Positions 30,221 to 49,825 of a stretch of 64,000 nt of DNA are shown here, in pieces (the first letter of the stretch is position 1; every line of letters starts with the position of its first letter). The notes beneath the pieces are model-generated. The model saw nothing but the letters and a program-made list of their open reading frames with translations. It did not search any database and was not told the DNA's origin. The position numbers and the translations under genes were made by a program. This DNA comes from Nonomuraea coxensis DSM 45129 (lineage in GTDB: Bacteria > Actinomycetota > Actinomycetes > Streptosporangiales > Streptosporangiaceae): the NCBI RefSeq assembly GCF_019397265.1, contig NZ_CP068985.1, positions 2,894,501 through 2,958,500 on the forward strand, written 5' to 3'.

Positions 30221-30915
30221 ATCGCGACAGCCCGGGGGCACATCCCCGGGCCGGACGCCGCCCCGGCAACCCCGGCACTCGGGAGGCGATCCTCGCCGCC
30301 GCCCGCCATCTGTTCGCCGACAAGGGTTACGACAGCGCCTCCATCCGTGCCGTCGCCACCCGCGCCGAGGTCGACCCGGCGCTGGTTCACCACTATTTCG
30401 GCACCAAGGACAAGCTCTTCCTGGCCTGCGTCAGCGCCCCGTTCGACCCGGCGGACCTGATGCCGAAGGTCCTGGCGGCACCCCGCGCCGAGCTCGGCGA
30501 CGCCTTGGTGCGGGCCGTCCTGGACATCTGGGACTCTCCCGCCGGCAGCGCCGCCGCAGCGTTGCTGGGCTCCAGCTTGAACAACGAGTGGATCGCACGG
30601 CTCCTGCGCGAGTTCCTCACCACTCAGGTCCTGCGGCCGGCGATCGAGCACCTCGGCATCGACGAACAGGAGGCCCCCGCTCGGGCCGCCCTGGCCGCCA
30701 CCCAGCTCATCGGCCTGGCCGTGATCCGTCACGTCCTCAAGCTCGAACCCGTCGCCTCCGCCCCGCCCGACCACCTGGTGGCCGCCACCGGCCCCACCGT
30801 GCAGCGCTACCTGACCGAAGACCTGCCCGCCGCACAGCTGAACGGGCCGGGACCGACGAAAGCGGGGAGCGCACTACCGCGCGCTCCCCGTTCCATCTCT
30901 CAAGGAACTACTTGA
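30217..30915 (+). CDS. TetR-family transcriptional regulator
   Basis: 232 residues from a GTG overlapping the hydroxylase stop, so it is the fourth gene of that operon. The HTH is ASIRAVATRAEVDPALVHHYFGTKDKLFLA. The C-terminal domain resembles TetR_C_33-type members with LNNEWIARLLREFL. The last 20 residues lie over a hairpin and overlap the convergent amylase gene by eight bases. Confidence 0.88.
   Translation: MNRDSPGAHPRAGRRPGNPGTREAILAAARHLFADKGYDSASIRAVATRAEVDPALVHHYFGTKDKLFLACVSAPFDPADLMPKVLAAPRAELGDALVRAVLDIWDSPAGSAAAALLGSSLNNEWIARLLREFLTTQVLRPAIEHLGIDEQEAPARAALAATQLIGLAVIRHVLKLEPVASAPPDHLVAATGPTVQRYLTEDLPAAQLNGPGPTKAGSALPRAPRSISQGTT
30863..30890. terminator. Bidirectional terminator hairpin between TetR and amylase genes
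   Basis: CGGGGAGCGC (30863-30872) and GCGCTCCCCG (30881-30890) form a perfect 10-bp stem with an 8-base loop. It lies inside the TetR tail and 18 bases past the convergent amylase stop, so it can serve the minus strand. Confidence 0.65.
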
Positions 30916-33862: not shown

Positions 33863-33930
33863 TGCCGTTCTTTCTGTTGGGGGATGAGAGTCGTCCCGGC
33901 CCGGACAAGTCCGAGACGCCCCGGCGTCGT

Positions 33931-35964
33931 CTAGCTGCCGCAGGGGTCGGTGGCGTTGGCGGTGGCGACGCCGTTCTTCACGGTGGTGGTGCCGGTGCCG
34001 AGGGTGTAGTTGTTGCCGTGGTTGTTGTCCCAGGTTCCGCTGTTGTTGTTGAAGGTGACCTGGAAGGTGGTTGCGGTGGCGAGGTCGACGGTCTTCTTTT
34101 TCCAGCCGGTGCAGGCGGTGTCCATGGCGATGCCGGGGACGGTGGTCCAGGTGCCGCCGATGCCGTAGTGGATGTTGGCGGTGCTCCAGGTGGTGGAGTA
34201 GTAGACGGTGGCGGTGTTCTGGGGGTTGGTGCCCTGGCAGGGGTCGGTGGCGTTGGCGGTGGCGACGCCGTCCTTGACGATGGTGGTGCCGGTGCCGAGG
34301 GTGTAGTTGTTGCCGTGGTTGTTGTCCCAGGTTCCGCTGTTGTTGTTGAAGGTGACCTGGAAGGTGGTTGCGGTGGCGAGGTCGACGGTCTTCTTTTTCC
34401 AGCCGGTGCAGGCGGTGTCCATGGCGATGCCGGGGACGGTGGTCCAGGTGCCGCCGATGCCGTAGTGGATGTTGGCGGTGCTCCAGCTCGTCTTGTAGAA
34501 GACGGTCGCGGTGCTGTCGCCCGTCGGGGTCGGCGTCGGGGTTGGGGTCGCGGTCGGCGAGGGCGAGGTGCCGACTCGGATGGCGACGGCGCTCTTGGCA
34601 GGCACGGTGACCGTCGCCGTGCCGCCGGCGTTCACGGTGACCGAGCCGCTGCCTGCGACGTTGGGGTACGTCCCGGCGGGCAGGCCGGTGGTGAAGGTGC
34701 GGGTGACGCCGCTGTTCTCGTTGTTGATGGCCACCCAGCCCCTGTCGCCGCGGCTGAAGGCGATCAGGTTGCTCCCGTTGTCGGTCCAGTTGCCGACGGA
34801 GGTGCCGCTGACGGCGTTGTAGAAGCCCACCATGCCGGACATCTCGCGGTCGAAGCAGGTCCAGCGGCCGTTGGAGCAGTCGGTGTCGGTGACGAACCCG
34901 CCGTTGGCCGACGGAGGTCCGCCCTCCCTGTCGTTCCAGGTGAAGGAGGAGTAGACGTTGGGCTTGCCGAACGGCCAGGCCAGCATGAACGTGTTGGCCA
35001 GCTTGTAGGTGGCGCCGTACTTGTACGTGAGCGTGGAGTCGCCCCGTTCGGTGTCGTGGTTGTCCACGAAGACCATGGCCTTGTCGCTGCCCACCGACAG
35101 GCCCCAGCTCTGGCCGAAGGTCTGCAGCGACTTGATCTGGCCGGTGAACTGCTCCTTGAGCTTGCGGCCGTAGACGAACTCGTCCACGTCGCCGACGCCG
35201 GTGTACTGGCTCGGCTGGACCGCCTCGTTCTGGCCGTAGATGACTTCCTGGTGGATGTAGGGCGACCCCTTGAGCCTGGACTTGATCGCCGCGAGGTCGT
35301 CGGGGCTCATGTGCTTGGCGGCGTCGATACGGAAGCCGTCGACGCCCAGGTCGATCAGCTTGTTCAGGTACGCGGCGATCTGGTCGCGCACGTGGTCGGA
35401 ACCGGTGTTGAGGTCCGACAGGCCGACGAGCTCGCAGTTCTGCACCCGCCAGGCGTTGTTGCCGTAGTCGGCGTCGTTGATGCCGCAGGCCGGCTGGTGG
35501 AAGTCCTGGGAGGAGTACAGGCCGGGGTAGTCGTACTTGCTGAAGCCGTAGCCGCCGTAGCTCGTCGAGCCTTGCCCGGTCATGTGGTTGATGACCGTGT
35601 CCACCTGGACCTTCACGCCCGCGGCGTGGCAGGCGTCGATCATCTTCCTGAACGCGTCCTGGTCACCGAACTTGCTGGTCAGGTCGTACCGGGCGGGCTG
35701 GTAGATGTCCCACCAGACCGAGCCTCCCTTGGACATGGAATCGGACGGCGGGGACACCTGCACCGATCCGTAGCCGGCCGGTCCCAGGACGTCGGCGCAC
35801 TCCTTGGCCACCGACTTCCAGTTCCAGTTCCACAGGTTGACGGTGACGCCGGGGCCGGAGGCGGCGTTGGCGGGCTCCTCGGTGAGAACCGGCAGCGCCA
35901 CGGCGGTGGCCGCCACCGCGGCCGCGCTTAACGCGCCCGCAACGATTGCTTTGTACAGTCTCAT
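33931..35964 (-). CDS. Secreted GH13 alpha-amylase with C-terminal CBM25 pair
   Basis: 677 residues from ATG 35964 (GGAG upstream). A signal peptide ends near PANA. The catalytic barrel resembles streptomycete/animal-type amylases: NHMTGQG, GFRIDAAKHM (nucleophile Asp), HQEVIYG (acid Glu) and FVDNHDTERG. An all-beta C domain follows, then a Pro/Thr linker (SPTATPTPTPTPTG) and two CBM25 modules at the C-terminus. The same modules sit at the N-terminus of the neighbouring amylase. The pair are probably secreted together to attack raw starch. Confidence 0.94.
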   Translation of the reverse strand: MRLYKAIVAGALSAAAVAATAVALPVLTEEPANAASGPGVTVNLWNWNWKSVAKECADVLGPAGYGSVQVSPPSDSMSKGGSVWWDIYQPARYDLTSKFGDQDAFRKMIDACHAAGVKVQVDTVINHMTGQGSTSYGGYGFSKYDYPGLYSSQDFHQPACGINDADYGNNAWRVQNCELVGLSDLNTGSDHVRDQIAAYLNKLIDLGVDGFRIDAAKHMSPDDLAAIKSRLKGSPYIHQEVIYGQNEAVQPSQYTGVGDVDEFVYGRKLKEQFTGQIKSLQTFGQSWGLSVGSDKAMVFVDNHDTERGDSTLTYKYGATYKLANTFMLAWPFGKPNVYSSFTWNDREGGPPSANGGFVTDTDCSNGRWTCFDREMSGMVGFYNAVSGTSVGNWTDNGSNLIAFSRGDRGWVAINNENSGVTRTFTTGLPAGTYPNVAGSGSVTVNAGGTATVTVPAKSAVAIRVGTSPSPTATPTPTPTPTGDSTATVFYKTSWSTANIHYGIGGTWTTVPGIAMDTACTGWKKKTVDLATATTFQVTFNNNSGTWDNNHGNNYTLGTGTTIVKDGVATANATDPCQGTNPQNTATVYYSTTWSTANIHYGIGGTWTTVPGIAMDTACTGWKKKTVDLATATTFQVTFNNNSGTWDNNHGNNYTLGTGTTTVKNGVATANATDPCGS
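33967..34506 (-). repeat. 540-bp CBM25-pair repeat, copy B
   Basis: Same length and apparent sequence as copy A, 734 bases away in the same orientation. It encodes the C-terminal modules of the smaller amylase. The flanking sequences diverge at once outside the block. Confidence 0.9.
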
Positions 35965-36557
35965 GGTGGGGGTCTCCAGATTGAGGACGGGATCCCGTGA
36001 GGGCGGGCCGGGTGGGCGAACACCTGGCCCGCTTCCATGCGAAACGCCTGCCGAGAGGCGTACGGGTTGTTTCGGCTCGACGACACGAGCCGCCGTGACG
36101 ATGTGGTGTCGTCCTCGTTCCGCGCCGCTGCGGAGTGCTTGAGAACGGAACACGGAGACGGAACTGGCCGCCCGGCCCCGTACATCGTGGGCGTTGGGGG
36201 AGGGGGGCGGCGCCCTCGGAGGGGTGGGGGACGGGCACACCGTAGGGGCCTCCATGTTCAGGTTTCCTAGGTGTTGCCTGGAAGTTACTCAGTGGCCATC
36301 CGGATTGCAATACTTTGCAGAGAATTCCAGAATGTCTCTCGGTCTATCTCGCCACTCTTGCTATCAAGTGTCCGCTTTTTCGCGGACATCCGCGCGCGTC
36401 GATGACTAAAAGTAACGGGAAAGAAGCGGTCCGCGTGAAGCCAAAGAGGTAATTGTGGATCATTGCAAAGAGCGTGGAAAGCTCTTGCGGTGACCGCAGA
36501 GGGGTCCGCAACGTTGCTGTCGCAAGTCCTTGCTATGGCTCTGTTCGGGGGAGAGGT
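35965..36557. other. Regulatory region upstream of the amylase; no gene
   Basis: About 590 bases between the amylase start and the end of the glycan operon. It contains TTGCAATACTTTGCAG (about 36305-36320), similar to the TGCAAG repeats at the maltose genes, and A/T-rich DNA around 36300-36480 that could hold the promoter. Short frames here show no motifs. Confidence 0.5.
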
Positions 36558-37808
36558 TCACCTGTCCGAGACGACGGGGCGCAAGGCGGCCTTGTACACC
36601 GCGTGCGTCTCGTCGGCGGCGCGGGCCCAGCTCAGCCGCTCGCGGACGAGCCGCTCGCCGCGCTCGGCCAGTGCCCGGCGCAGGTCCGGATCGGTCATGA
36701 CCTCGATCACCGTACGGGAGATGTCGCCAGGCTCATCGGCGCGTACGAACCGGACGGCGGGCCGATCCGGGTCGCCGAGGAAGACCTTGGAGAAGCCATG
36801 GCCGAGGATCGTCGGTCTGGCCATCGCCATGGCCTCGGTAGCCACCAGGCCGAACGGTTCGAAGAGGGAGGGAAAGACACAGACGTCGGCCATCTCGTAG
36901 TACTCCAGCAACTCCTGGCGGTCCACCCAGCCGCCGGAGTCGAGCACCCGCCCGTCCAGCCCGCTCTGAGCGACGATCCGCCGGACCCCGGAGTGGTCAC
37001 CCTCCCCGACGATCACCAGCCGCAGCCCCGGGACGGCGGCGGCGATCGGCCGCATGGCCTCCAGCAGCTGGTAGATGCCCTTCTGCCGTTCGAGGCGGCC
37101 CACGAACAGCAGCACGGGGTCCCCGGCGGGGATCCCGAGCCTGGCGCGCAGGGCCTTGCCGCCTGCACGAAGCCCGTCCCGGGCGCCGCCGGTGGCCAGA
37201 AGCCGTTCGAAGGTGCCACCCAGGCACACGACGTCGATCGACGCCCGATCCCAGCCGGAGGCGGCCAGTTGCTCCCGGACCTCGGGCGTGGGGACGATCA
37301 CGCGCCGGGCGACGCGCGCCAGCCACCGCTCGATCGCCGCGAACACCGCGCCCGCGAGGTCGCTCCGCCCGCGGTGCACCCCGTACTCCGTGGTGTGGAC
37401 GTGGAGCACCACAGGGAGCCGCAGGACATGGTGGCAGAGCAGGCCGGCGAGGAAGTTCGTCGAGTCGTGGACGGCGACCAGGTCGGGCCGCCCGTCCCGC
37501 CCCGCGCGCCACAGCCGCAGGAAGTACCGCCAGTTGCTCGTCACGACCGTCAGCACGAGCAGGACGACGTCCGTGCCGCGCGTGCGGTTGAGGCGTCGGC
37601 GGCGGCCGAGCGCGCCGAGGACGCGGCTCATGGGCCGATACACGGTGACCCCGCCGTTCCGCTCGTGCACCGGGAGGCGGCCGTCGTTGAGCGTGAACAC
37701 GGCAAGCCGGTGACGGGCCGCCAGATGAGGGGTGATCTCCTCGATGTAGCGGCCGAGTCCGGCCGTGATGTTGGGCGGGAACTGGGTGATGATCTGGGCG
37801 ATCCTCAT
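36558..37808 (-). CDS. GT4-family glycosyltransferase
   Basis: 416 residues from ATG 37808, overlapping the exporter stop. It starts MRIAQIITQFPPNITAGLGR, the glycine-rich acceptor loop of GT4 enzymes. The donor half has FVGRLERQKGIYQLLEAM, GEGDHSGVRRI and the nucleotide-sugar motif VFPSLFEPFGLVATEAMAMA (Ex7E). It probably acts on the cytoplasmic face on a lipid-linked acceptor. It is the last gene of the minus-strand glycan operon. Donor and linkage are unknown. Confidence 0.9.
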   Translation of the reverse strand: MRIAQIITQFPPNITAGLGRYIEEITPHLAARHRLAVFTLNDGRLPVHERNGGVTVYRPMSRVLGALGRRRRLNRTRGTDVVLLVLTVVTSNWRYFLRLWRAGRDGRPDLVAVHDSTNFLAGLLCHHVLRLPVVLHVHTTEYGVHRGRSDLAGAVFAAIERWLARVARRVIVPTPEVREQLAASGWDRASIDVVCLGGTFERLLATGGARDGLRAGGKALRARLGIPAGDPVLLFVGRLERQKGIYQLLEAMRPIAAAVPGLRLVIVGEGDHSGVRRIVAQSGLDGRVLDSGGWVDRQELLEYYEMADVCVFPSLFEPFGLVATEAMAMARPTILGHGFSKVFLGDPDRPAVRFVRADEPGDISRTVIEVMTDPDLRRALAERGERLVRERLSWARAADETHAVYKAALRPVVSDR

Positions 37809-39109
37809 GGTGACGTCTCCGGGGCGGGGCAGGCGTCCACGGTCTCCGCCCGGCTGTACGTCAGCCGGCAGACGGCGACGATGAGGGCGACCAGGACGAG
37901 GTTGGACAGCGCGAACGCCCACAGCCCGCCGGCCAGGCCCTGCCAGGCGATGAGCGCCGCCTGGCAGCCGAGCACGAGGGGAGCGCCCGCGACCTGGGCG
38001 ACGATGAGGGCCCTGGCCCCTCGCACCCCGTCCATGAGCAGAGCGAGCGAGTACAGATTGAAGACGGTGTGGACGCCGATCCCCACGGCCGAGAGCGCCA
38101 TCAGCCCCGGCGAGTAGGGGTAGTCGGCACGCAGCAGCAGGAAGAACACCGCGCTGGCCGCGAACGAGACGAGCGCGGTCACGGCGAAGACGGCCGGGGA
38201 CAGGCGGCCGATGCGCCGCAAGGCCGTCGGCTTGTGCATGGTCGCCAGCGTGGGGAGCAGCACCAGGCCGACGCCGTCGGTGAACAGCACCCCCAGCAGC
38301 CGCTTGGGGAAGTTGTTGTAGATCGAGTAGACGCCGACGTCCGCCTGGGCCGCCCAGTGGTTCAGGAAGATCACGTCGACGCCGAACAGCACGGTGGTGA
38401 GGGCGGTGAGTGCGGTCAGATAGGCGCCGTGACGGTACAGCGTGCGCGCCAGCGCCGCCGACCAGAGGCGCGGCACGACCCGGAAACCCGCCGTGGCGGC
38501 GACGGCGAAGAGCACGTTCGACGCGATGAGGCAGGTGAGGTAGAGGTAGGCGTCCCCGATTCCGGGGACGAGCAGGCAGTACGCCGACGTGCCGAGGTAG
38601 GCGACGGCCACGACGAGCTTCAGGCCGGCGGTGAGCGCGTACCTTCCGAGCCCGCGCAGGAAGCTCTCGGTCAGGTACGCGGCCGTCAGGGACAGCGCCA
38701 GGGCGAGCCCGAAGCAGAGCGTGGGGACGTCGACGCCGAACACGGCGGTCAGGACGGGAGCGGCCGTCAGCCCCGCGACGCACAGGACGATCCCCAGCAC
38801 CAGCGTGGAGAGCAGAGCCGTGGTCACGAGGGCGGGGCGGTCGGCGGGCTCGGCCCGCGGCAGTTCCTGGTACATCACGAAGTGCAGGCCCATCACCATG
38901 GGGACGACCACGATCAACCCGATCGACAGGACCACCGTGAACCGGCCGAAGGCGGCGGCGCCGAGCCCCCAGGCCACGGCCAGTGTGGTCGCCGCCGAGA
39001 TCCCGCTGGCGAAGGCGTTCACCAGAGCCGGTCCCACCGGCCGGCCCTGGGCGGCGAGGAGCCTGGCGACCCGCGCGGGCGCGCTGGTCGCCGTCCGCGC
39101 CGGGGTCAC
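37805..39109 (-). CDS. Wzx-like polysaccharide exporter (MOP superfamily)
   Basis: 434 residues from a GTG overlapping the upstream GT stop. It has about twelve hydrophobic segments and no soluble domain. The start ALVNAFASGISAATTLAVAW and the internal GVYSIYNNFPKRLLGVLF resemble flippases for lipid-linked oligosaccharides. Placed between two GT4 genes, it suggests that the product is moved across the membrane. No Wzy polymerase is evident, so a single repeat unit or glycolipid may be the product. Confidence 0.82.
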   Translation of the reverse strand: MTPARTATSAPARVARLLAAQGRPVGPALVNAFASGISAATTLAVAWGLGAAAFGRFTVVLSIGLIVVVPMVMGLHFVMYQELPRAEPADRPALVTTALLSTLVLGIVLCVAGLTAAPVLTAVFGVDVPTLCFGLALALSLTAAYLTESFLRGLGRYALTAGLKLVVAVAYLGTSAYCLLVPGIGDAYLYLTCLIASNVLFAVAATAGFRVVPRLWSAALARTLYRHGAYLTALTALTTVLFGVDVIFLNHWAAQADVGVYSIYNNFPKRLLGVLFTDGVGLVLLPTLATMHKPTALRRIGRLSPAVFAVTALVSFAASAVFFLLLRADYPYSPGLMALSAVGIGVHTVFNLYSLALLMDGVRGARALIVAQVAGAPLVLGCQAALIAWQGLAGGLWAFALSNLVLVALIVAVCRLTYSRAETVDACPAPETSP

Positions 39110-40371
39110 CGCGTCGCCTCGCCGTACGCCGCCAGGGTGCGCTCGGCCGTCCGGGCCCAGCTGTAGTGCTCCCGCACGTACGCCGCGCCGCGCCGGGCGA
39201 GCCGGTCCGAGCCCTGTGGGTCGCCGAGGCAGCCCAGCAGGAGCGCGGCCAGCTCGTCCGGATCGTCGTGGCCGCAGCGCAGCGCCCCGTCGCCGACGAC
39301 CTCCGGCGAGTAGCCGGGACCGACGACGACAGGCCGGGCCAGTGCCATGGCCTCGACGGCGACCAGGCCGAACGGCTCGTACACGGAGGGGAAGACGCAC
39401 ACGTCGGCGGCGAGGAAGTGCGCGAACACCTCGGTGGACGGCAGGAACCGGTTCCCCGCGACCACGTGGGCGGCGGTGCCGGTCTCCTCGATCACCCGGG
39501 CCAGCACGGCGGCGTCGTCGGTCTGCGGGAGCTCGGCGCCGACGAGCACGACCCGGGTGCCGGCGTGCTCCTCGACGAGCCGGGGTACGGCACGTACCAG
39601 GGTGTGGACGCCCTTGTGGGACGACAGGCGGCCGGCGAAGACGACGAGCCGGCCCTCGCCGCCGGGCAGGTAGCGGCGCCGGACCTCCGAGCGGATCCGG
39701 TCGCGCTCCTCCTCGGGCAGGGCCGCCAGCCGCAGGAGCTCGGGATCCTCGAAACCGTGCGGCACGACGCGCACCCGGTCGGCCGGCCAGCCCCTGGCCG
39801 TCAGCTCGTCGCGCATCGCGGCGCTCGGCACCACGATGAGGCGCGCCAGCCGGGCCTGGGCCGTCTCCAGCGCGTCGAGGACGAGGGCGTGCCGGGGGCG
39901 ACGCCGTCCCGGAGCCGCGTTGAGTTCGCGGGTGTGCACGTGGAACACGACCGGCAGGCGGCCGAGCACCCGGCACAGGATCCCGGCCGGGCAGCTCATC
40001 CAGTCGTGCACCGCGACGACCGCTCCGGCTCGTCCTGGCCCGGAGCGGCCCGCCTCGGAGCGCAGGATGCGTGCGGCGGCGCGCAGGTTGAACACGAGCA
40101 GCCCGGCCGTCCTGCCCAGCAGCCGCAGGGGCCGAGGAAGACGGGGATTCCCGACGAGGCCCAGGCCGGCCGAGGTCAGCCTGTGCAGCGTGAGGTCGCC
40201 GGAGCGTTCCGTCCGGGGGGTCCGGCGCCGCCCGGCGGCCCCCAGCACCTCGATGGGGATTCCGGATTCGCCGAGAGGGGCCGTCATCCTCTCGGCGTAC
40301 CGCCCGAGACCTCCCACGATCTCCGGGGGAACCTCTGAGCAGACGGCGTAGATCCGGCTCGGACGGTCCAT
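39106..40371 (-). CDS. GT4-family glycosyltransferase
   Basis: 421 residues from ATG 40371 (TGATG overlap). The N-terminal half has VPPEIVGGLGRYAERM and the donor half VFAGRLSSHKGVHTLVRAVP and VFPSVYEPFGLVAVEAMALA (Ex7E). It is a paralogue of the enzyme at 36558-37808, with shared VVFHVHTRE-like segments. Two GT4s and a GT2 in one operon imply a glycan of at least three residues. Confidence 0.9.
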   Translation of the reverse strand: MDRPSRIYAVCSEVPPEIVGGLGRYAERMTAPLGESGIPIEVLGAAGRRRTPRTERSGDLTLHRLTSAGLGLVGNPRLPRPLRLLGRTAGLLVFNLRAAARILRSEAGRSGPGRAGAVVAVHDWMSCPAGILCRVLGRLPVVFHVHTRELNAAPGRRRPRHALVLDALETAQARLARLIVVPSAAMRDELTARGWPADRVRVVPHGFEDPELLRLAALPEEERDRIRSEVRRRYLPGGEGRLVVFAGRLSSHKGVHTLVRAVPRLVEEHAGTRVVLVGAELPQTDDAAVLARVIEETGTAAHVVAGNRFLPSTEVFAHFLAADVCVFPSVYEPFGLVAVEAMALARPVVVGPGYSPEVVGDGALRCGHDDPDELAALLLGCLGDPQGSDRLARRGAAYVREHYSWARTAERTLAAYGEATR

Positions 40372-41147
40372 CAGTCCGCCCGCCGCAGGTAGGCCGTCCG
40401 GGCGAACTCGAGGTCGGCCGGAGTGTTGATGCCGCGCGCCTCGTCCGGGTCGCCGACCGGCACCGCGGTCACCGGCCGGCCCTGCCGGGACAGACAGGTG
40501 AGGAACGGCAGGAAGTTGATCTCGCCGGTGACCGCCCCGGGAACGGCGTCTGCCAGGAACCGGTTCCATGCCTCCGTGAGCTCGCGGGTGCCGAGACAGA
40601 AGACGCCGACGTCGCCGAGCCCGCCCGGACGGCACCGGTCGCCCTCGCGGGACATCCGTACGCGCAGCAGCCTGGAGGTCGCGGCGTCGTACTCGTACTC
40701 GACGTACGGGTCGGGCAGCGGGACCAGGGGGAGGACGAGTCCCGGCCGGTCCGGCGAGGCCGTCCGCGCATGAGCGCGCACGACCCGTCCGAGCGTCGCG
40801 GTCGACACGTTCGCCTGGTCGCCCCAGACCACCAGGATGGCGTCGTACCCTAGCCAGTACGGGGCCGCGCCGAAGACGGCGTCGCCCATGCCGGTGGGCG
40901 TGGCCTGGACGCTCACGGTGACCTGCCCGCGGGCGATCTCCTCGGCCGCGAGCCGCCGGAACGGGCCCTCTCCGCTGGGGGAGAGCACGACGTGGATGTG
41001 CTCGACCCATGGCCGCAGGCGGCGCAGGAGCAGGGACCAGACGGTCACACCGTCGGCGATCTCCAGCATGATCTTGGGGATTCCCGTGCCGAGGCGGCTG
41101 CCCTGCCCGGCCGCCGGAATCACCGCACAGGTACGCAGGTCACTCAC
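40371..41147 (-). CDS. MobA-like nucleotidyltransferase
   Basis: 258 residues. The N-terminus VIPAAGQGSRLGTGIPKIML is the NTP-binding loop of nucleotidyltransferases (GxGxRLG...PK). VVWGDQANVSTATL and INFLPFL are typical later blocks. The fold is shared by sugar-1-phosphate nucleotidyltransferases, MobA and CofC. A CofD/YvcK-like gene occurs two genes upstream, so a CofC-like activating role is possible, as is ordinary NDP-sugar synthesis. It overlaps the HAD gene by eight bases. Confidence 0.82.
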   Translation of the reverse strand: MSDLRTCAVIPAAGQGSRLGTGIPKIMLEIADGVTVWSLLLRRLRPWVEHIHVVLSPSGEGPFRRLAAEEIARGQVTVSVQATPTGMGDAVFGAAPYWLGYDAILVVWGDQANVSTATLGRVVRAHARTASPDRPGLVLPLVPLPDPYVEYEYDAATSRLLRVRMSREGDRCRPGGLGDVGVFCLGTRELTEAWNRFLADAVPGAVTGEINFLPFLTCLSRQGRPVTAVPVGDPDEARGINTPADLEFARTAYLRRAD

Positions 41148-41841
41148 GGTCGTCCGTCTCCGCGTCGATGAGGTGGATGAGCTGGTCCAGATGCCGTACC
41201 GGCAGGGCCCCCTGAGCGGGCAGGGCCGCGTGGACCTGGAGGGTCACCAGCCCGGCGCCGAGGGCGGAGGCCACCCCGTGGGCGGAGTCCTCCAGCACGA
41301 GGCAGTCGGCCGGGTCGAGGGACCACAGCCGGCAGGCGTGCAGGTAGAACCGAGGGTCGGGCTTGGCGCAAGCGACCTCGTCGGAGGTCAGCACCGCTCG
41401 GAAACAGCCGGTCAGGGCGCCGGCCGACAACACCCGCCGCACCGACTCACGGCTGCCGCTGGTGACCAGGTAGAGCGTGCGGCCGGTGCGGGTCAGGCGC
41501 TCCAGGAGTTGGCGGGCGCCGGGAAGGAGGGTCACCATGCCGGCCTCGACGCGTTCGCGGTACAGCTCCTGCTTGCGCCGGATCAGGCGCTCGGCGTCCG
41601 CGGGGGCCGCGCCCAGCGTGGTCACCACCTCGCGTGTGCCGGCCCCCGCGTGGTCGCCGTAGCTGAAGGAGGTAAGCAGTTCCGGTGCGATCTCGGCGAG
41701 GGCCTCGCGGAAGGCCGCCTCGTGGACGGGAGAGGAGTCCACCAGCGTGCCGTCCAGGTCGCACAGCCAGACTCGCCTGGTGGAGACCAGCCTCGCCACG
41801 TCGGTGGACAGGACGTCCGTCCGGACGCGGACCACGCTCAT
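41140..41841 (-). CDS. HAD-superfamily phosphatase
   Basis: 233 residues from ATG 41841 (ATGA overlap). The four HAD motifs are visible: CDLDGTLVDSS, LVTSGSRES, a lysine in CAKPDP, and LVLEDSAHGVASALGAG. The helical cap places it with beta-phosphoglucomutase-like and sugar-phosphatase enzymes. In this operon it may remove a phosphate from a sugar or phospho-acid precursor. Confidence 0.9.
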   Translation of the reverse strand: MSVVRVRTDVLSTDVARLVSTRRVWLCDLDGTLVDSSPVHEAAFREALAEIAPELLTSFSYGDHAGAGTREVVTTLGAAPADAERLIRRKQELYRERVEAGMVTLLPGARQLLERLTRTGRTLYLVTSGSRESVRRVLSAGALTGCFRAVLTSDEVACAKPDPRFYLHACRLWSLDPADCLVLEDSAHGVASALGAGLVTLQVHAALPAQGALPVRHLDQLIHLIDAETDDRE

Positions 41842-43103
41842 ACGGTCCTCACCAGGGCCGTCTCGCCGGCGGTCGTGCCCACGACGCCCGCGAGGGCGGA
41901 GAGGGTGCGCCGGCCGCAGTGCACGCCTGGGCGCTCGGGATCCTCCAGGTCCGTCACGATCCAGCGCGCCCTTTCCCAGCCGCCGCCGTCCACGGCGCCG
42001 GCGAACGTGGCCCGATGGCACAGGACGTGGGTCACCGTGCGCCGCTCGTTGTACGGATCGCCCAAGTAGGACAGGGTGCGCCGCACGAGCGCACGCGGGC
42101 CCAGCCCCTGGACGTCGTGGTCGTCGTGGATGTTGACGACGAAGACCTTGGCGGCGGCCCGGCTGTCGGAGACGGCGTCCGCGACGCCGGGAGTGAGATA
42201 CGTGGGCAGCAGCGAGGAGTGCGGTGTCCCGGGACCGTACACGATGAGGTCCGCGTCGCGGATCGCGTGGTCCGCCTCGGGGTTCAGCGTCACCTCGGCC
42301 GCCGCGCCGGCCAGAACCGGCCGGACGAGTTCGGCGGGAAGTGCCTGGAGTTCGGCGCGGCGCTCCGGGCTGACCGGCTCGCGCAGCAGGTACAGGTCGG
42401 TGATGGCGGTGTCGCACTGAGGGGCGACGATGTCGGCCTCGTCGGTGAGGATGCGGCCGTCCTGCTTGAGGGCGGTCAGGTAGGCGTTCTCGCCGTTCGT
42501 CACGTTGAGCAGACGGGCGGGTGACCGGAAGGTCGCGGCGCACGCGCGGACCGCGGCGTTGAAGTCCTCGCCCAATCGCAGGTAGGCCCCGGCGAACAGC
42601 AGGTTGCCCAGCGCGCAGCCGGCGAGGGCGAGCTCCTCGGGGTCACGGCCGAGCCGGCCCGTCATGAACGACAGGTCCCGTACCGCTTCGGCACGCGTCC
42701 GGGCCGGCAGCGCGGCGAACATCCGCCGGTCCTGATGACCGCCGATGCCGTCGCTCGGGGAACCCTCCGCCGATTCCCGGGCCGCCAGCGCGCGGACGAT
42801 GGCGGCGAGGTCGTGGTAGGTCGCCCCCGGCGGTAGCCGGTGCTCCAGCAGGGCGATCATGGCCGCCTGCGCCGGGATGCCGGCGTCGAGGTGAAGCAGG
42901 AGGTTCTTGCGGAAGTCCGACGGCCCCAGCATGCCGGGGAGGTAGCGCCGGAGCATCCCGGTGGACGACCCGTTGTCGTACCCGTTGATCACCACCGACA
43001 GGGTGGTCCCGGGCGTTCGTACGAGTCCACGAGCGATGCTGGACCCGCCGCGGCCGCCGCTGAACAGCACCGCGGCTGCTCCTTCGAGGTGTTCCACGGT
43101 CAT
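41838..43103 (-). CDS. CofD/YvcK-family protein
   Basis: 421 residues from ATG 43103 (ATGA overlap). The opening LFSGGRGGSSIARGL and the block NGYDNGSSTGMLRRYLPGML, then SDFRKNL, match the CofD/YvcK superfamily (PF01933). Further support is LNVTNGENAYLTALKQ and DLIVYGPGTPHSSLLPTYL. CofD transfers phospholactate to the F420 precursor; YvcK binds UDP-sugars and affects wall synthesis. The setting here, between a GT2 and a HAD/nucleotidyltransferase pair, is neither. It may transfer a phospho-group to a glycan or regulate the pathway. Confidence 0.82.
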   Translation of the reverse strand: MTVEHLEGAAAVLFSGGRGGSSIARGLVRTPGTTLSVVINGYDNGSSTGMLRRYLPGMLGPSDFRKNLLLHLDAGIPAQAAMIALLEHRLPPGATYHDLAAIVRALAARESAEGSPSDGIGGHQDRRMFAALPARTRAEAVRDLSFMTGRLGRDPEELALAGCALGNLLFAGAYLRLGEDFNAAVRACAATFRSPARLLNVTNGENAYLTALKQDGRILTDEADIVAPQCDTAITDLYLLREPVSPERRAELQALPAELVRPVLAGAAAEVTLNPEADHAIRDADLIVYGPGTPHSSLLPTYLTPGVADAVSDSRAAAKVFVVNIHDDHDVQGLGPRALVRRTLSYLGDPYNERRTVTHVLCHRATFAGAVDGGGWERARWIVTDLEDPERPGVHCGRRTLSALAGVVGTTAGETALVRTV

Positions 43104-43888
43104 CCCGCCTCCTCGGGGCCAGAGGCAGTGCGTAGGACGCCTCGGCGCAGCAACCAATGGCGGTAGCCGAGATAGGCGACGAACAGGGCGCGGTCGCACG
43201 CGCCGCGCCAGAACCGCCAGCCGCGTCGGCCGCTGCCGCGCTCCCGATGTTCGATGGGCACCTCGACCCACTGGTGGCCGATCTCGGCGACCCGCGCGGT
43301 GATCTCGGTCGAACAGTTCATCCCGCCCGCCTCCAGCGGCAGCGCCCGGAACAGCGGGCCGTGCACCACCTTGAAGACCGAGTTGAAGTCGCGGTAGCGC
43401 GTGCGGTGCAGCAGGTTGCTGATCGCGCCGCTGGCTGCCGACCCCCACCGGTACGCCAGGCCGTCGGCCTTCCTGATCCGGGCACCGGAGAACGCCATGG
43501 CCTCCCCTGCCTGGACCCTCGGCAGGACGCGGTCGAGGTTCGCGATGGGAAACTGCCCGTCGGAGTCGAGCAGTACGACCCAGTCGAACCGGGTGCGGGC
43601 GATGGCGGCGGCGATCGCGGCGCCCGCCCCGCGGTTGTGCTCGAACGTGACGACCACCAGCTGAGGGCAGTCGTACGACAACCCGGCCAGGACGGCGCTC
43701 GTGGCGTCAACGCTGCCGTCGTCGCAGACGACGATCTCCCACTCGCCGACCGACGGATGCCGCTCCAAGTACTCCCGCCACTCGGTGACCACGGCCGCGA
43801 TGGTGTCCGCCTCGTTGTAGGCGGGCGCCGCCACGGAGACATCGACGGTGCGGGTAGAGGTCGGGAGGCCGCGGGGAAAGGTCAGCAT
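43100..43888 (-). CDS. GT2-family glycosyltransferase (DPM-like)
   Basis: 262 residues. The motifs are VAAPAYNEADTIAAVV, VCDDGSVDATSAVL and the DxD-type LLDSDGQFPIANL, followed by DFNSVFKVV. It resembles polyprenyl-phosphate hexosyltransferases. A short hydrophobic C-terminal segment (FVAYLGYRHWLL) may tether it to the membrane. It likely makes the lipid-linked sugar that starts or feeds the glycan. Confidence 0.9.
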   Translation of the reverse strand: MLTFPRGLPTSTRTVDVSVAAPAYNEADTIAAVVTEWREYLERHPSVGEWEIVVCDDGSVDATSAVLAGLSYDCPQLVVVTFEHNRGAGAAIAAAIARTRFDWVVLLDSDGQFPIANLDRVLPRVQAGEAMAFSGARIRKADGLAYRWGSAASGAISNLLHRTRYRDFNSVFKVVHGPLFRALPLEAGGMNCSTEITARVAEIGHQWVEVPIEHRERGSGRRGWRFWRGACDRALFVAYLGYRHWLLRRGVLRTASGPEEAG

Positions 43889-43946
43889 GGTTCCACCTCC
43901 TCTGGCTTCGGGTGAACGGGTGGGCTGGTTCCGACGACGAGGCCGG

Positions 43947-44666
43947 TCATCGCACCCGGGCGGAGGACGCGAGTCCCAGCAGGCGATCGATCCACCGGTC
44001 CAGCGGGAGCAGCGCGACCCCGACGACGATCGGGACGTGCGCCAGCGCGAACAGGATCGTCGCGCCGAAAGAGATGGGGCCGCCGGTGAACACCGCGATG
44101 TGGGGGGCGTCGATACGTTCGGGGATCGGGATGGGGTTCACCAGCTGCCACATGATGTCGAGGAAGCCGGAGAACACGATGAGGACGCCGTTCACCGCGA
44201 TCTTGAGGCAGTTTCCGGGGCTTCCGCCCCCCAGCCGGTAGGCCGCGGCCACGCTCAGCACGATCCCGGGATAAAGCAGCAGGTAGAGGTGCGTGTAGAA
44301 GCCGTCACCCTGCACGCGGGCGGTGTCGCCGTAGTAGAAGTAGCTGATTCTGGGGAGCACGTAGCCGGTGAAGAAGACGAGCGGGACGTACAGCAGCCAG
44401 TACAGGCGCCGCGATGCCCATGGGAAGAACGCGATCCCGCAGCACAGACAGGCGAACGCCAACAGCTTGAGGCCGAGTTGCCACGCCGCCTGGATCTCCC
44501 GGCCGTGCGGCGTGGCCAGCCAGACGAACGCGGCTCCGCCCCCGCCTCCGAGCAGGGCGATCCACCAAAGGTGAGGAGCCCAGGCGCGCGGTGACCTGAG
44601 AACGATGTCGCCGGGCAAGGGATTCTTCTCACTCACTAAATGCGGGGCGTCACTGTCCGCCGTCAT
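43947..44666 (-). CDS. Integral membrane protein, unknown function
   Basis: 239 residues from ATG 44666, chosen for GGAGG upstream. About six hydrophobic segments are visible (for example WWIALLGGGGGAAFVWLA and LLYVPLVFFTGYVLP), with no catalytic motif I recognise. It is the first gene of the minus-strand glycan operon, 58 bases before the GT2. The YFYYGDTARVQGDGFYTHLY loop might face the active site of a partner enzyme. Confidence 0.75.
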   Translation of the reverse strand: MTADSDAPHLVSEKNPLPGDIVLRSPRAWAPHLWWIALLGGGGGAAFVWLATPHGREIQAAWQLGLKLLAFACLCCGIAFFPWASRRLYWLLYVPLVFFTGYVLPRISYFYYGDTARVQGDGFYTHLYLLLYPGIVLSVAAAYRLGGGSPGNCLKIAVNGVLIVFSGFLDIMWQLVNPIPIPERIDAPHIAVFTGGPISFGATILFALAHVPIVVGVALLPLDRWIDRLLGLASSARVR

Positions 44667-45024
44667 CGACCGGCCTCCGGGGAAGATAAAGGAAAGGCGC
44701 ACGTGCTGCGCGCAAGGGAGTTCTACGGGCAAAAGACTGTGGCCAACTTCGCCTTACTGTCAACACCCTTGCAATAATTCCCGCAGGTCAGAAAGGGAGA
44801 TCACGCTGACGAGCTGAAATGAGTTTCCCTTGGTGCCGCATCTTGCAATGGGCGGAAGGACGATTGAACTTTGGTCGACGAAAGGTGGCGAAGGGAAGAG
44901 GTCGCCAGCAGCGGGGACAGAAGTAAGGGTGGCGCCTGCGATTCCGAAAAGGCGCAGAGTGAATCGCAGGATGTTGTCGCACTTCTTGCCTGCCGAAGCC
45001 CCGTTCCATGGAACGAGGTCACGT
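44667..45024. other. Promoter region of the glycan operon; no gene
   Basis: About 360 bases. The part near 44667-44840 is A/T-rich and should contain the operon promoter on the minus strand. CTTGCAATAATT at about 44770 and ATCTTGCAATGG at about 44846 resemble the TTGCAA elements at the amylase genes. No open frame here looks real. Confidence 0.45.
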
Positions 45025-45070: not shown

Positions 45071-48000
45071 CTAGCCGGCGAGGCTGACGCCTCGGGCGGT
45101 CAGCAGCGCCCCCTGCGCGTCGCGCTCCACGGCCACGACCTGGCCGCGGCGCGCCTGGTCGATCAGGTCCTCGTCACGCGGATCCACGCGGAGAGCGGCG
45201 TAGGAGGCCCACTCGGGCCAGGCGGCCCGCTGCTCGTCGGTGAGCGCGCCCGGCACCAGGCGGATGATGCGGTAGTCGCCGGTCAGCTCGCCCTTGTCGT
45301 GGCCGATGCCGTCCGGGGCGAACGCCAGGGTGTACTGGCGCGCGGATCCGGGCCGGACGTTCCACGCGATGGTGGAGCGGTCGATCCAGTGTGCCTCCGC
45401 CTTGTCGAGGTCCACGTCGGCGACGCGGGCCGGCGGCTGGGGCAGGACGTCGCCCGGCGAAGCGGCCAAGCGCCACACTTCGTGACCGGTGGTCGCCACA
45501 TCCAGCGACTGGTTGTCGGGAAGGTCCTTCTCGTCGCCCTTGTGCAGGATGTAGCTCACGTTCTTGCCACCCTCGGTGAGCGGCACCTCGAAGACCGCGC
45601 CGAACGCGTCGTACCGGGCCGGTCGCAGCGGCGCCGACCATTCGGTGGGCTGCCGGACGTCACCCCACAGGTGCAGCCCCCAGCCGTCGTAGTCGCCGCC
45701 GGGTCGCCGGTAGTGCAGGACCATGGTGTTACGAGCCGCGGCCTCCGAAGGATGCACCTGCTCGGAACCCGAGTTCACGTACGCCTCCGCCTGACGGCCG
45801 GGCGTCACCGACTGGTCGCCCCCGGGGTCCTTGGCGTCGCCGCGGTGGATCACGAAGTTCACCGGCACATCCGCGTCACGCACCGGGACCCGCCAGTACA
45901 GCCCGAACGCGTCGGTTCCGTCGGGCACGCGCGGCTCGCTCCACTGCGTGGCCGCGCCGTCGGCCAGGCCCTCGCCCCACAGATGCAGGCCCCAGCCGGT
46001 GTAGGCCGCGTCCGGCCGGTTGTAGCGGATGGTCACGAACCCTTGGGCGGCGGCCCGGGAGACGTGCACGTCCTGTTTGCCCTGGACGAGCCAGATCTCA
46101 CCGTTCCGCGCCGGATTGACGGTGCGTGGAGCCCCGTCGGCTCCGTCGGCGCCGCGAACGGTCAGGGTGACGTTCGCGGCGTTCTCCCGGAGCTTGATCC
46201 AGGCGAAGCGGCCGAACGCGTCCTGGCCGGTGAGCGGCGCGGCGCCCGGCTGCGCGACGTCGCCTGAGACCTCCAGGTCCCAGCCGTCGTAGTCGCCTCC
46301 CGGCCGCGCGTAGTGCACCACCAGCCAATCGCGCCGCGCCGCCCCGGGCTCCGGCGCCTGCGGCTCGGGGCCGACCACGGCGGAGGCCCTGGCCGAGGCC
46401 AGCCGTCCCGCGGAGTCCTCGACGACCGCCTTGTAGATGACGGGGGTCCCCGCCCGCAGCCCTGTCAGATCGTGGAAGACGCGGAAGGTGCGCCCGTTGG
46501 GCGCCGTGTCGGTGCCGAGCACCCGCCACGGTCCCGAGCCGGCCTTCGCGGCGAAGGTGACGCGGTCGAAGCCGGTGCCGGGAACGGTCGCCTTGATCTC
46601 GACGCGACCGTCGCCGTCGGCGCCGCGGATCTCGGCGCCCGGCAGTTCGAGGGCGATGGACGGGCGCGCGGCGGGCGCGTCGAGCGGACGCGCCGCCTTG
46701 TAGACAACGGCCGACAGCGGCGGGACGGTGGTGGTGAGGACGCGCCCGGCGTCGGCGCGCAGAACGTCGGGACCGGTGCCGTACAGCCTGGTGAAGCTCA
46801 TGCCCGCCGTGTAGGTGGGGATGGCGGCCTTGGCCGGCTGCTCGGCGTTGTTCACCGCGACGACGTACTCGACGCGCCGCCCGGCGTCGATGCGGGAGAA
46901 GGCGTACACGCCGCCCTGCGCGAGGCGCTCGATCTGCGCGCCGTCGGCCAGGGTCGGGTGGGTGTCGCGGAGCCGGGCCAGGGCGGCGATCCCCTTGTAG
47001 AGCGGGTGGCCGGTGTCGTAGTTGTCCGTCGCGTGCGTGGACGTGGTGCCGATCAGGTCGTCCGACAGATAGGACGCCGCCTTCGAGGCGAACATCGGCT
47101 GCCGCGCGTCCCTGTCGCCGCCCTTGCCGGTGAAGCCCTGCTCGTCACCGTAGTAGACGACCGGCTGACCGCGCGTCAGGTACATCAGCTCGTGCGTGAG
47201 CAGGTCCCGGCGCAGCAGCTCCTCGTCGCTCGCGCCCGGATTGTCCTGCGCCAGGAAGCGGCCGATGCGGCCCATGTCGTGGTTGCCGAGGAACGTGGGC
47301 AGGCTGGAGGCGTCGGAGTCGGCGTCCGTGTAGGAGTCGTCGGCGGCGTACAGGCGTGACAGGCGGCTCGCGTCAGCGGTGCCGCCGCCGTACGACCGCG
47401 CGGCCTCCTGGAACGGGAAGTCCAGAGTGGCGTCCATGCCACCGCGGGTGGAGTAGCGGCTGGTCTCGGACGGGTCGCTGGAGTACACCTCGCCGAACAT
47501 GAAGAACCGCTCGTTGCCGAGCTTGGCGGCGTAGCCGTGCAGCGCGGGGGAGAAGCGCTCCCAGAACTCCATGTTGACGTGCTTGGCGGTGTCGATGCGG
47601 AAGCCGTCGATGTCGGTCTCCCGCACCCACGTGCGGTAAATGTCGATCATCCCTTGGACGACTTCGGGCCGCTCGGTCCACAGGTCGTCGAGCTGGGAGA
47701 AGTCACCGTGCTGCGAGCTCTCCCCGGCGAAGGTGGAGTCGCCCCTGTTGTGGTACATGGTGACGTCGTTCAACCACGCGGGCTTCTTGACGACGCCGTC
47801 CACGGGCACGGGCGTGTACGGGAACGCCCCTTCGTCCACCTTCGGGAACGGCTTCGAGCCGTCGGTGTGGTCGCCGTCGTCGAAGGGCTTGCCCGTCGCG
47901 TCGACGTACGGATAGGCGGCCTTGGACCGGTAGCCGTACTGCTTCTCCTTGTAGTCGATGCCGTCGGCGGTGTGGTTGGTGATGATGTCGAAGAAGACTT

Positions 48001-48562
48001 TCATCCCGCGCCGGTGCGCCTCTTTGACCAGCTTCTTCATGTCGGCGTTGGTGCCGAGATGGGGGTCGATGGAGGTGAAGTCGGTGATCCAGTAGCCGTG
48101 GTAGCCGGCCGTCGTCCCCTGCACGGGACGGTTGCGGAACGCCGGTGTGATCCACAGCGCCGTGGTGCCCAGGCCCTTGATGTAGTCGAGCCTGGCCATC
48201 AGCCCCGCGAGGTCTCCACCCTGGTAGAAACCGGTGTCGGTGGGGTCGAAACCGGTGGCGAGTCGGTCGCCGGACAGCCCGCCACGGTCGTTGCCAGGAG
48301 TGCCGTTGGCGAAGCGGTCCGTCATGGCGAAGTAGAACCGCTCGCGGCTCAGCGGGAGGTCGCGGCGCTGTCTGGCCAGCTGCCGGTCGCTCGGCTCGCG
48401 GTCGCCCATCCCTTGAAGGGCGGACGGCGCCGTGCCGGCCTGGTGGTGAGCGGCTGCCTGGGCGGGAACGGGTGGCGTGAGGGGGAGGAGCAAGGGGAGC
48501 GCGAGGAAGGCGGACGCCAGCCCGAGCTTGCGTAACCGATGAGAAGGGGTGTTCAGGGGCAC
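45071..48562 (-). CDS. Secreted GH13 amylase with pullulanase-type CBM41 modules; pullulanase half absent
   Basis: 1163 residues from GTG 48562 (GGAGG upstream). A signal peptide ends at PAQA. The GH13 barrel has DGFRIDTAKHV (nucleophile Asp), FMFGEVYS (acid Glu) and FLGNHDMGRIG. An Ig-like domain is followed by three PUD/CBM41-like modules: VVHYARPGGDYDGWDL, TIRYNRPDAAYTGWGLHLWG and VLHYRRPGGDYDGWGLHLWG. The chain then enters the segment that precedes the second catalytic domain of actinobacterial amylopullulanases (DLDKAEAHWIDRSTIAWNV) and stops at ARGVSLAG. It should bind and cut branched alpha-glucans but lacks the debranching half. Confidence 0.87.
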   Translation of the reverse strand: MPLNTPSHRLRKLGLASAFLALPLLLPLTPPVPAQAAAHHQAGTAPSALQGMGDREPSDRQLARQRRDLPLSRERFYFAMTDRFANGTPGNDRGGLSGDRLATGFDPTDTGFYQGGDLAGLMARLDYIKGLGTTALWITPAFRNRPVQGTTAGYHGYWITDFTSIDPHLGTNADMKKLVKEAHRRGMKVFFDIITNHTADGIDYKEKQYGYRSKAAYPYVDATGKPFDDGDHTDGSKPFPKVDEGAFPYTPVPVDGVVKKPAWLNDVTMYHNRGDSTFAGESSQHGDFSQLDDLWTERPEVVQGMIDIYRTWVRETDIDGFRIDTAKHVNMEFWERFSPALHGYAAKLGNERFFMFGEVYSSDPSETSRYSTRGGMDATLDFPFQEAARSYGGGTADASRLSRLYAADDSYTDADSDASSLPTFLGNHDMGRIGRFLAQDNPGASDEELLRRDLLTHELMYLTRGQPVVYYGDEQGFTGKGGDRDARQPMFASKAASYLSDDLIGTTSTHATDNYDTGHPLYKGIAALARLRDTHPTLADGAQIERLAQGGVYAFSRIDAGRRVEYVVAVNNAEQPAKAAIPTYTAGMSFTRLYGTGPDVLRADAGRVLTTTVPPLSAVVYKAARPLDAPAARPSIALELPGAEIRGADGDGRVEIKATVPGTGFDRVTFAAKAGSGPWRVLGTDTAPNGRTFRVFHDLTGLRAGTPVIYKAVVEDSAGRLASARASAVVGPEPQAPEPGAARRDWLVVHYARPGGDYDGWDLEVSGDVAQPGAAPLTGQDAFGRFAWIKLRENAANVTLTVRGADGADGAPRTVNPARNGEIWLVQGKQDVHVSRAAAQGFVTIRYNRPDAAYTGWGLHLWGEGLADGAATQWSEPRVPDGTDAFGLYWRVPVRDADVPVNFVIHRGDAKDPGGDQSVTPGRQAEAYVNSGSEQVHPSEAAARNTMVLHYRRPGGDYDGWGLHLWGDVRQPTEWSAPLRPARYDAFGAVFEVPLTEGGKNVSYILHKGDEKDLPDNQSLDVATTGHEVWRLAASPGDVLPQPPARVADVDLDKAEAHWIDRSTIAWNVRPGSARQYTLAFAPDGIGHDKGELTGDYRIIRLVPGALTDEQRAAWPEWASYAALRVDPRDEDLIDQARRGQVVAVERDAQGALLTARGVSLAG

Positions 48563-48655: not shown

Positions 48656-48799
48656 GGACGGAACTGGACGACGGACGCCCTGGAGGGCGTCATGTCAGGC
48701 GTTCGGCTCCTCTCGGCAGGCCACCGAGTGCTGCTTCCGCTTGTAAAGCGGGCAAAGGCGCGGGTCATGGTGGGAAGGGAAGACGGTAAAATCACCGGC

Positions 48800-49825
48800 A
48801 TGACCATGCGCCTCGCCGACATCGCCGCCCAAGCGGGCGTGAGTGAGGCGACTGTGAGCCGGGTGCTCAACGGCAGACCCGGTGTGGCGGCCGACACCAG
48901 GCAGGCCGTCCTCACCGCCCTTGACGTGCTGGGCTACGAGCGTCCGTTGAAGCTGCGGCAGAACCAGACCGGGCTGATCGGCCTGATCCTGCCCGAGCTC
49001 AACAACCCCATCTTCCCGGCGTTCGCGCAGGTCATAGAGAGCGCTCTGGTGTTGTCGGGCTACACGGCCGTGCTGTGCACGCAGACTCCTGGCGGCGTCA
49101 CGGAAGACGACTACACCACCCTGCTGCTGGAGCGCGGCGTCGCCGGAATCATCTTCGTCAACGGGCTGCACGCCGACTCGCGCTCCGACCGCACCCGCTA
49201 CGTGCGGCTGGCCGAGCTGGGCCTGCCAATGGTGCTCATCAACGGCTTCCGTCCCGACATCCCCGCGCACTTCATCTCCAACGACGACGTCGCCGCGCTC
49301 GACATGGGGGTCAACCACCTGGTGTCTCTGGGCCACCGGCGGATCGGGCTCGCGGTCGGGCAGGAGCGTTTCGTTCCGACCATCCGAAAGACGCAGGGAT
49401 TCGAGCGCGGCATGGCCGCCTACGCCGGCGTCACCGACGTCTCCGAGCTGGTCGTCAACACCCTCTACACCGTCGAGGGCGGCCAGTCCGCGGCGCAGCA
49501 GCTGCTGGAGCGCGGCTGCACGGCCATCTGCTGCGGCAGCGACATCATGGCCATCGGCGCGATCAGGGGCGCCCGCAACCTCGGGCTTCGCGTCCCGGAG
49601 GACGTCTCGGTCGTGGGCTTCGACGACACGCCGATGACGGCCTACCTCGACCCGCCACTGACCACCATCAGGCAACCGGTCCGCGACATGGCCCTGGCGG
49701 CCGTCGCGAGCCTGCTGGACGAGATCCAGGGCCTGCCCGCGCCTCGCGCGGAGCTGTTGCACCGCCCTGAGCTGGTGGTCCGCCGCTCGACGGCTCCGGT
49801 CCGCGCCGCCGTTCCCACCAGCTGA
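48800..49825 (+). CDS. LacI-family maltose-type regulator (MalR-like)
   Basis: 341 residues from ATG 48800; the frame is open further upstream (ATG 48767 is possible) and no ribosome site decides. The HTH is MRLADIAAQAGVSEATVSRV with hinge helix LNGRPGV. The periplasmic-binding-like core has FVNGLHADSRSDRTRY and VVGFDDTPMTAYLDPPLTT. It is divergent from the large amylase and precedes malE-like genes, so it probably represses both until maltodextrin is present. A paralogue lies at 54932. Confidence 0.9.
   Translation: MTMRLADIAAQAGVSEATVSRVLNGRPGVAADTRQAVLTALDVLGYERPLKLRQNQTGLIGLILPELNNPIFPAFAQVIESALVLSGYTAVLCTQTPGGVTEDDYTTLLLERGVAGIIFVNGLHADSRSDRTRYVRLAELGLPMVLINGFRPDIPAHFISNDDVAALDMGVNHLVSLGHRRIGLAVGQERFVPTIRKTQGFERGMAAYAGVTDVSELVVNTLYTVEGGQSAAQQLLERGCTAICCGSDIMAIGAIRGARNLGLRVPEDVSVVGFDDTPMTAYLDPPLTTIRQPVRDMALAAVASLLDEIQGLPAPRAELLHRPELVVRRSTAPVRAAVPTS

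Follow-up and report, generated by a model that had tools for sequence, protein, structure and literature searches.

A putative Wzx-type glycan operon of Nonomuraea coxensis with a YvcK/GlmR-like protein, a GlmU-like partner and operator-like sites of polysaccharide-degradation regulons

An eight-gene operon on the minus strand

We analyzed a stretch of 64,000 nt of the Nonomuraea coxensis genome (9.07 Mb, one contig), here referred to as the window, whose coordinates are used throughout. On its minus strand, from 44666 to 36558, lie eight genes in the order mem-GT2-CofDL-HAD-NT-(GT4a)-MOP-GT4b, and all junctions from GT2 onward overlap by 1–8 bases. An eight-gene operon had been proposed here in the original prediction, and its genes, place and strand were all confirmed. 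About 27 loci show this gene order, and the arrangement is thus far beyond chance. Gene content, conserved order, family placements, residue conservation and operator-like sites with their positions were all read from the sequence.

The first gene, mem (43947..44666), encodes an integral membrane protein of unassigned family with about six helices predicted in its AlphaFold2 model. The protein is well conserved, with a mean column identity of 73% among 23 orthologues; it gave no Pfam match above noise and no NCBIfam, PDB or fold match, and the model is poor (predicted local distance difference test, pLDDT, 62). GT2 (43100..43888) encodes a glycosyltransferase resembling polyprenyl-phosphate-sugar synthases (PF00535, E 3e-23). 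Its best NCBIfam model is AglJ; matches to ArnC, dolichyl-P hexose transferase and PpgS were reported as well, and every score is far under cut-off. Next come CofDL (41838..43103), a PF01933 protein of 421 aa from the YvcK/GlmR branch; HAD (41140..41841), a HAD-IA hydrolase of the beta-phosphoglucomutase/sugar-phosphatase group; and NT (40371..41147, GTG start), a stand-alone GlmU-type uridylyltransferase domain of 258 aa. The glycosyltransferase gene GT4a (39106..40371) is limited to the variant-A clusters described below, and GT4b (36558..37808), also encoding a glycosyltransferase, is found in all clusters. Between them lies MOP (37805..39109, GTG start), encoding a Wzx-like polysaccharide flippase. 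Pfam supports the assignments of GT2, CofD (PF01933), HAD, NTP_transf_3 and both GT4s. The MOP protein of the window has no Pfam match, and the Wzx-like label is weak for this protein alone; its orthologues match Polysacc_synt (PF01943), one of them over cut-off (L062, E 8e-9) and two others more weakly.

The CofDL-HAD-NT trio

By hidden Markov model, profile and predicted fold, CofDL is nearest to YvcK/GlmR (and to the unstudied GAK CofD-like family), with CofD of F420 synthesis far weaker. With 104.7 bits against PF01933 (cut-off 30) it belongs to the superfamily, while it stays below the family's own cut-off for all three NCBIfam models: GAK CofD-like TIGR04357 (97.8 bits, cut-off 340), which gives the best score, YvcK TIGR01826 (88.6 bits, cut-off 196) and the F420 CofD equivalog TIGR01819 (19.3 bits, cut-off 257). 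The annotation of the eight operon genes shows neither the ATP-grasp nor the XXXCH partner that define the GAK system. When the CofDL family profile was compared with structures, YvcK/GlmR alone was found (2hzb, E 7e-17) and no CofD. The AlphaFold model of CofDL (pLDDT 80, predicted template-modelling score 0.84) retrieved YvcK best in Foldseek (E 1e-14, TMt 0.75–0.77), compared with E 1e-8 to 1e-7 and TMt 0.58–0.64 for FbiA/CofD. Ordinary CofC, CofD and YvcK genes are encoded elsewhere in the same genome, and hhalign aligned CofDL with that YvcK over 298 columns (E 2e-9) and with that CofD over only 42 (E 4e-4).

CofDL shares with YvcK/GlmR (UPF0052; TIGR01826) the fold, the Asp of the YDNG/ADDG motif, the LGN motif and the GPGT/GPGS loop. 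It differs in length, with about 420 aa against 320–340, and in setting, since yvcK lies in a rapZ-yvcK-whiA locus and CofDL in a glycan operon. The catalytic residues of GlmR are D40, D41 and N198 (PMC10128056), and the UDP-sugar (uridine diphosphate sugar) residues of Bacillus subtilis YvcK are T14, N218, Y265 and R301 (PMC5482804). We mapped the YvcK/GlmR residues onto CofDL through the 2HZB alignment. D43 corresponds to YvcK D37 and Listeria GlmR D40 and is retained, as is N324 at YvcK N217 (N218 of the UDP-sugar set). Three changes count against a GlmR-type activity: N44 stands at YvcK D38/GlmR D41, S/T301 at YvcK N195/GlmR N198, and R18 at the UDP-sugar contact T13 (T14). Y265 and R301 fall beyond the confident alignment, hhalign tentatively placing R301 at the variable residue V394. 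Only part of the GlmR site is therefore kept, and CofDL should not be called GlmR. Possession of the YvcK residues together with occurrence in many unrelated contexts had been named in the original prediction as a sign of a regulator rather than a transferase. The residues give a divided answer, D43 and N324 pointing one way and R18, N44 and S/T301 the other; the many contexts were not found, for CofDL occurs almost always in this single operon, a pattern that speaks for a pathway enzyme over a general regulator.

The NT profile matches the uridylyltransferase domain of GlmU from end to end (E 9e-18). K25, Q81 and D110 of NT are invariant in 15 sequences, and likewise N241 of a GVN motif, which we take to be the Mg-binding Asn of the GVN motif of GlmU. 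The first three align with K25, Q76 and D105 of GlmU, which bind uridine triphosphate (UTP) in the Haemophilus influenzae enzyme (PMC10128056). NT thus resembles the N-terminal domain of GlmU over its whole length with UTP and Mg residues kept, and differs in having no acetyltransferase domain and in scoring under the equivalog cut-off. NT showed no match to CofC (hhalign, 17 columns at a probability of 4%), and the sole genomic match to PF01983, at 7.49 Mb, is not NT.

These results bear on the chemistry first imagined for the operon, in which NT, like CofC, would make a nucleoside diphosphate adduct of a phospho-acid or sugar phosphate, and CofDL, like CofD, would transfer the phospho-group to a hydroxyl, leaving a glycan phosphodiester. 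CofDL does have the CofD-superfamily fold (FbiA, E 2e-8), within the cluster NT is never far from CofDL, and D43 is invariant within a strand-loop motif common to the superfamily. However, NT is GlmU-like, CofDL is much nearer to YvcK than to CofD, and the phosphoester product is conjecture. Compared with the F420 pair CofD/FbiA and CofC/FbiD, the operon shares the CofD fold, with a sequence match of at most 42 columns for CofD and none for CofC. The CofC/CofD pairing was consequently rejected on sequence, and we regard such chemistry as quite improbable.

HAD belongs to group IA, with beta-phosphoglucomutase and sugar phosphatases as relatives and with closest structures labelled both ways. 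Its H40 and K90 are presumably the counterparts of the catalytic His and the cap Lys of Lactococcus lactis beta-phosphoglucomutase. The mutase Arg in the SR motif of the L. lactis enzyme apparently has no counterpart, and a true beta-phosphoglucomutase was therefore set aside; HAD is likelier a phosphatase.

Distribution, variants and stand-alone copies

With CofDL as bait, loci sharing this gene order were detected only in Streptosporangiaceae/Thermomonosporaceae, with Nonomuraea, Sphaerisporangium, Sphaerimonospora, Actinomadura and further members of the same GTDB family as hosts. Among 395 genomes sampled across the class, 11 match (the window's own included), all within this family. A sample of 396 genomes across the phylum added only two weak matches (G581 and G685), and as both sit among yvcK-type neighbours, no wider spread through distant relatives was seen. 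No match was found among 72,556 plasmids. Presence is patchy even within the genus, with strong matches in 7 of the 37 Nonomuraea genomes. N. ceibae is the closest named relative of the window genome, and the CofD-like proteins of the two share 99% identity.

The clusters can be divided into two variants. Variant A, to which the window copy belongs, contains GT4a; variant B is without GT4a and has a second GT2 gene (GT2b) adjoining. A variant-B copy (L032, at about 6.06 Mb) is additionally present in the genome of the window, and genomes G347 and G408 likewise have two copies each. The labels A and B are clustered on the CofDL tree but need about three changes. A single exchange of GT4a and GT2b was therefore rejected, and swaps or losses must have happened more than once. 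In one variant-B locus, treY- and treZ-like genes of the maltooligosyl trehalose pathway follow directly after the cluster (L011:14858-20563).

Two CofDL genes stand alone. In Actinomadura sp. WMMA1423 (L017) CofDL is the only cluster gene; in the related K4S16 (L018) the same neighbours flank a complete cluster. The WMMA1423 protein is changed at 9 of the 114 positions that are invariant in 27 cluster-borne copies, including D43G, T48A, D63A, K66R and N167D, and the second orphan (L059) carries C163S, N167D and S296F. In a leave-one-out comparison, the most divergent cluster-borne copy (N. ceibae, used for the window copy) showed 8 changes, all outside the motifs except A50M. These patterns suggest that the motif residues serve a function which would matter only with the rest of the operon present. 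N167D and V226A are common to both orphans, though these are not sisters on the tree. Both orphans (L017:9923-11164 and L059:9292-10503) still have CelR-type boxes in front, the remaining cluster being gone.

The orphans also bear on the explanation that CofDL is a non-enzymatic UDP-sugar sensor, which would tune the glycosyltransferases or the supply of nucleotide sugars in the way that GlmR acts on GlmS in B. subtilis. YvcK binds UDP-sugars (PMC5482804) and YvcK/GlmR regulates GlmS (PMC7525490), and the orphan genes, their motif residues lost, are nevertheless open reading frames behind CelR sites. On the other hand, the gene occurs almost exclusively in this operon; the motifs YDNG, SDFRK and LGN are invariant in clusters and lost in orphans alone, as catalysis would predict; and GlmR itself has been measured to be a uridyltransferase (PMC10128056). 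We consider a pure sensor unlikely and favour an enzyme of the GlmR type.

Operator-like sites and the predicted pathway

The CelR/CebR box TGGGAGCGCTCCCA, 14 bp in length, has been described at cellulase genes in Thermobifida and Streptomyces, and variants with one altered end base occur at the txt genes of Streptomyces scabies (PMC3377646, PMC5332605). Of the variant-B loci, 15 have a readable 5' region, and every one of these carries the core of the box, GGGAGCGCTCCC, there, before mem in 14 cases and before the adjoining GT2b in one (L056). There are 38 copies of the core in 533 kb of loci, against none of the reversed control and 0–2 of seven other palindromes. The genome of the window contains 13 perfect boxes (control, 0), and the genes adjoining them include GH6 and CBM2-bearing cellulases, a protein like lytic polysaccharide monooxygenases, a GH3 enzyme and a LacI gene. 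The operon shares with the CelR/CebR cellulose regulon the box itself, also with one end base changed. It differs from the members described in the main texts of this literature, which are hydrolases, transporters, regulators and thaxtomin genes with no glycan assembly operon; the main text of the CelR survey of actinobacteria (PMC3377646) makes no mention of glycosyltransferases.

The window copy itself has no CelR box. It lies within a maltose/amylase locus, where it is surrounded by alpha-amylase genes, malE/malF homologues and a LacI gene. Upstream of mem are two MalR-like boxes TTGCAA(G), a distal one at 44843..44848 and a proximal one at 44769..44774, directly 5' of a -35-like TTGACA, both at most 190 bp from the mem start codon. 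TTGCAA occurs 6 times in the window, 5 of these in three promoter regions (this operon and two amylase units), and none of 2000 shuffles of those regions reached five. MalR sites have been published with the core CTTGC(A/T)G in direct or inverted repeats (PMC5526262), and exact cores are present upstream of malE and of the amylase gene at 48.6 kb. MalR-like boxes were also seen in four other variant-A clusters: three (L058, L060 and L062) have a common AGAAAGTTGC[TC]GCAAA.GATC upstream of mem, and the fourth (L061) has CTTGCTG and CTTGCAG there. In L062 a malR homologue, 69% identical to the LacI protein of the window, is divergent from the cluster. L058, L060 and L062 also carry CelR boxes, located in the mem-GT2 interval or within the 3' end of the mem gene (L058:11560, 11655; L060:8071, 8166, 8261; L062:11710), the spacing in L060 being exactly 95 bp; these boxes may point to an additional, internal promoter of variant-A clusters. 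Judged from all these operator-like sites, the operon is apparently part of regulons for polysaccharide degradation.

The neighbours in the window include, outside the operon, a gene for a large alpha-amylase/pullulanase-type enzyme (45071..48559, minus strand), followed by the gene of a LacI-family regulator, presumed MalR (48797..49825, plus strand), which adjoins the malE/malF homologues. On the other side is an alpha-amylase gene (33931..36120, minus strand) with TTGCAA boxes at 36305 and 36463. Between GT4b and this amylase gene an inverted repeat, GCAAGTCCTTGC (36522-36533), is a candidate LacI-family site. Two adjacent amylases (30908-36120) have in common tandem modules, each about 100 aa long (SATVFYKTSWSTANIHYGIGG...), that are nearly identical, which suggests recent duplication or gene conversion.

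Several points weigh against regulation of this kind and against a complete Wzx-type pathway. The window boxes, CTTGCAA, each have one mismatch from the MalR core, and the TTGCAA pattern was picked after inspection of the sequence. In L064 the CelR site is located some 600 bp upstream. Four variant-A clusters (L006, L007, L008 and L010) have neither a CelR nor a MalR box. GH6 cellulases are present in nearly all of the genus whether the cluster is present or not; an association of the cluster with cellulolysis was thus rejected for lack of contrast, and the cluster is not needed for cellulose breakdown. In addition, we identified no polymerase, ligase or initiating phosphoglycosyl transferase. 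Upstream of mem, L006, L008 and L010 have a common sequence around CATCTATGCA..GGAAC.TATAGGGTCCC, possibly a different operator or promoter.

One might then see here an ordinary variable exopolysaccharide cluster, whose operator-like sites are coincidental or serve neighbouring genes. The patchy presence in Nonomuraea would fit, as would the swapping of GT4a and GT2b between clusters and the position of the window copy among amylase genes, which themselves require MalR sites. But CelR sites stand 5' of mem in clusters with differing neighbours, the control palindromes are far rarer than the CelR core, and the two window boxes lie close to the mem start codon. We hold this explanation to be very improbable. 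The likeliest reading of the genes and promoter regions is a glycan operon of the Wzx type that contains an unusual UDP-sugar trio and is controlled along with polysaccharide utilisation.

Compared with known Wzx-dependent glycan clusters, the operon shares the set of GT2, GT4 and MOP exporter, and differs in having no recognised Wzy or initiating phosphoglycosyl transferase, in the extra CofDL-HAD-NT trio and in the CelR/MalR-type operators. We give about an even chance to an induced, UDP-sugar-fed, lipid-linked pathway of the Wzx type with a GlmR-type enzyme, co-induced with polysaccharide-degrading enzymes. Its catalytic steps are deduced from family membership, and we infer repressor binding and a lipid-linked glycan as product. 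NT would convert a sugar 1-phosphate into a UDP-linked sugar, on which CofDL would act by uridylyl or sugar-phosphate transfer or by gated hand-over, and HAD would dephosphorylate a sugar phosphate, either in this step or in the supply route. GT2 would load a sugar onto polyprenyl phosphate, GT4a and GT4b would lengthen the chain, and MOP would flip the lipid-linked chain, with mem acting at the membrane. Repression of the MalR type in the window copy, and by CelR/CebR in the sister clusters, would couple expression to the breakdown products of starch or cellulose. A further proposal, which we put forward as speculative and rather doubtful, is that a GlmR/CofD-superfamily enzyme with its dedicated GlmU-type partner carries out a new UDP-sugar transfer, and that the exported glycan is made only during cellulose or starch digestion, for example coating the cell or secreted hydrolases at the substrate surface.

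That part of the original prediction which saw here an operon for assembly and export of a lipid-linked glycan, with an enigmatic PF01933 protein, was thus supported, and the CofC/CofD analogy was not. In the literature searched, we found no described counterpart and no CofD-like/UPF0052 gene linked to a glycan operon. If the proposed pathway is true, polysaccharide digestion in soil actinomycetes would be tied to a dedicated glycan-building pathway, a link likewise not found in that literature. Moreover, the operon offers a genetic setting for the disputed role of YvcK/GlmR as sensor or uridyltransferase. CofDL belongs to a single defined pathway that has a uridylyltransferase and an exporter of its own, and its patchy presence in the genus marks it as non-essential; the role of the YvcK/GlmR family may therefore be addressable here.

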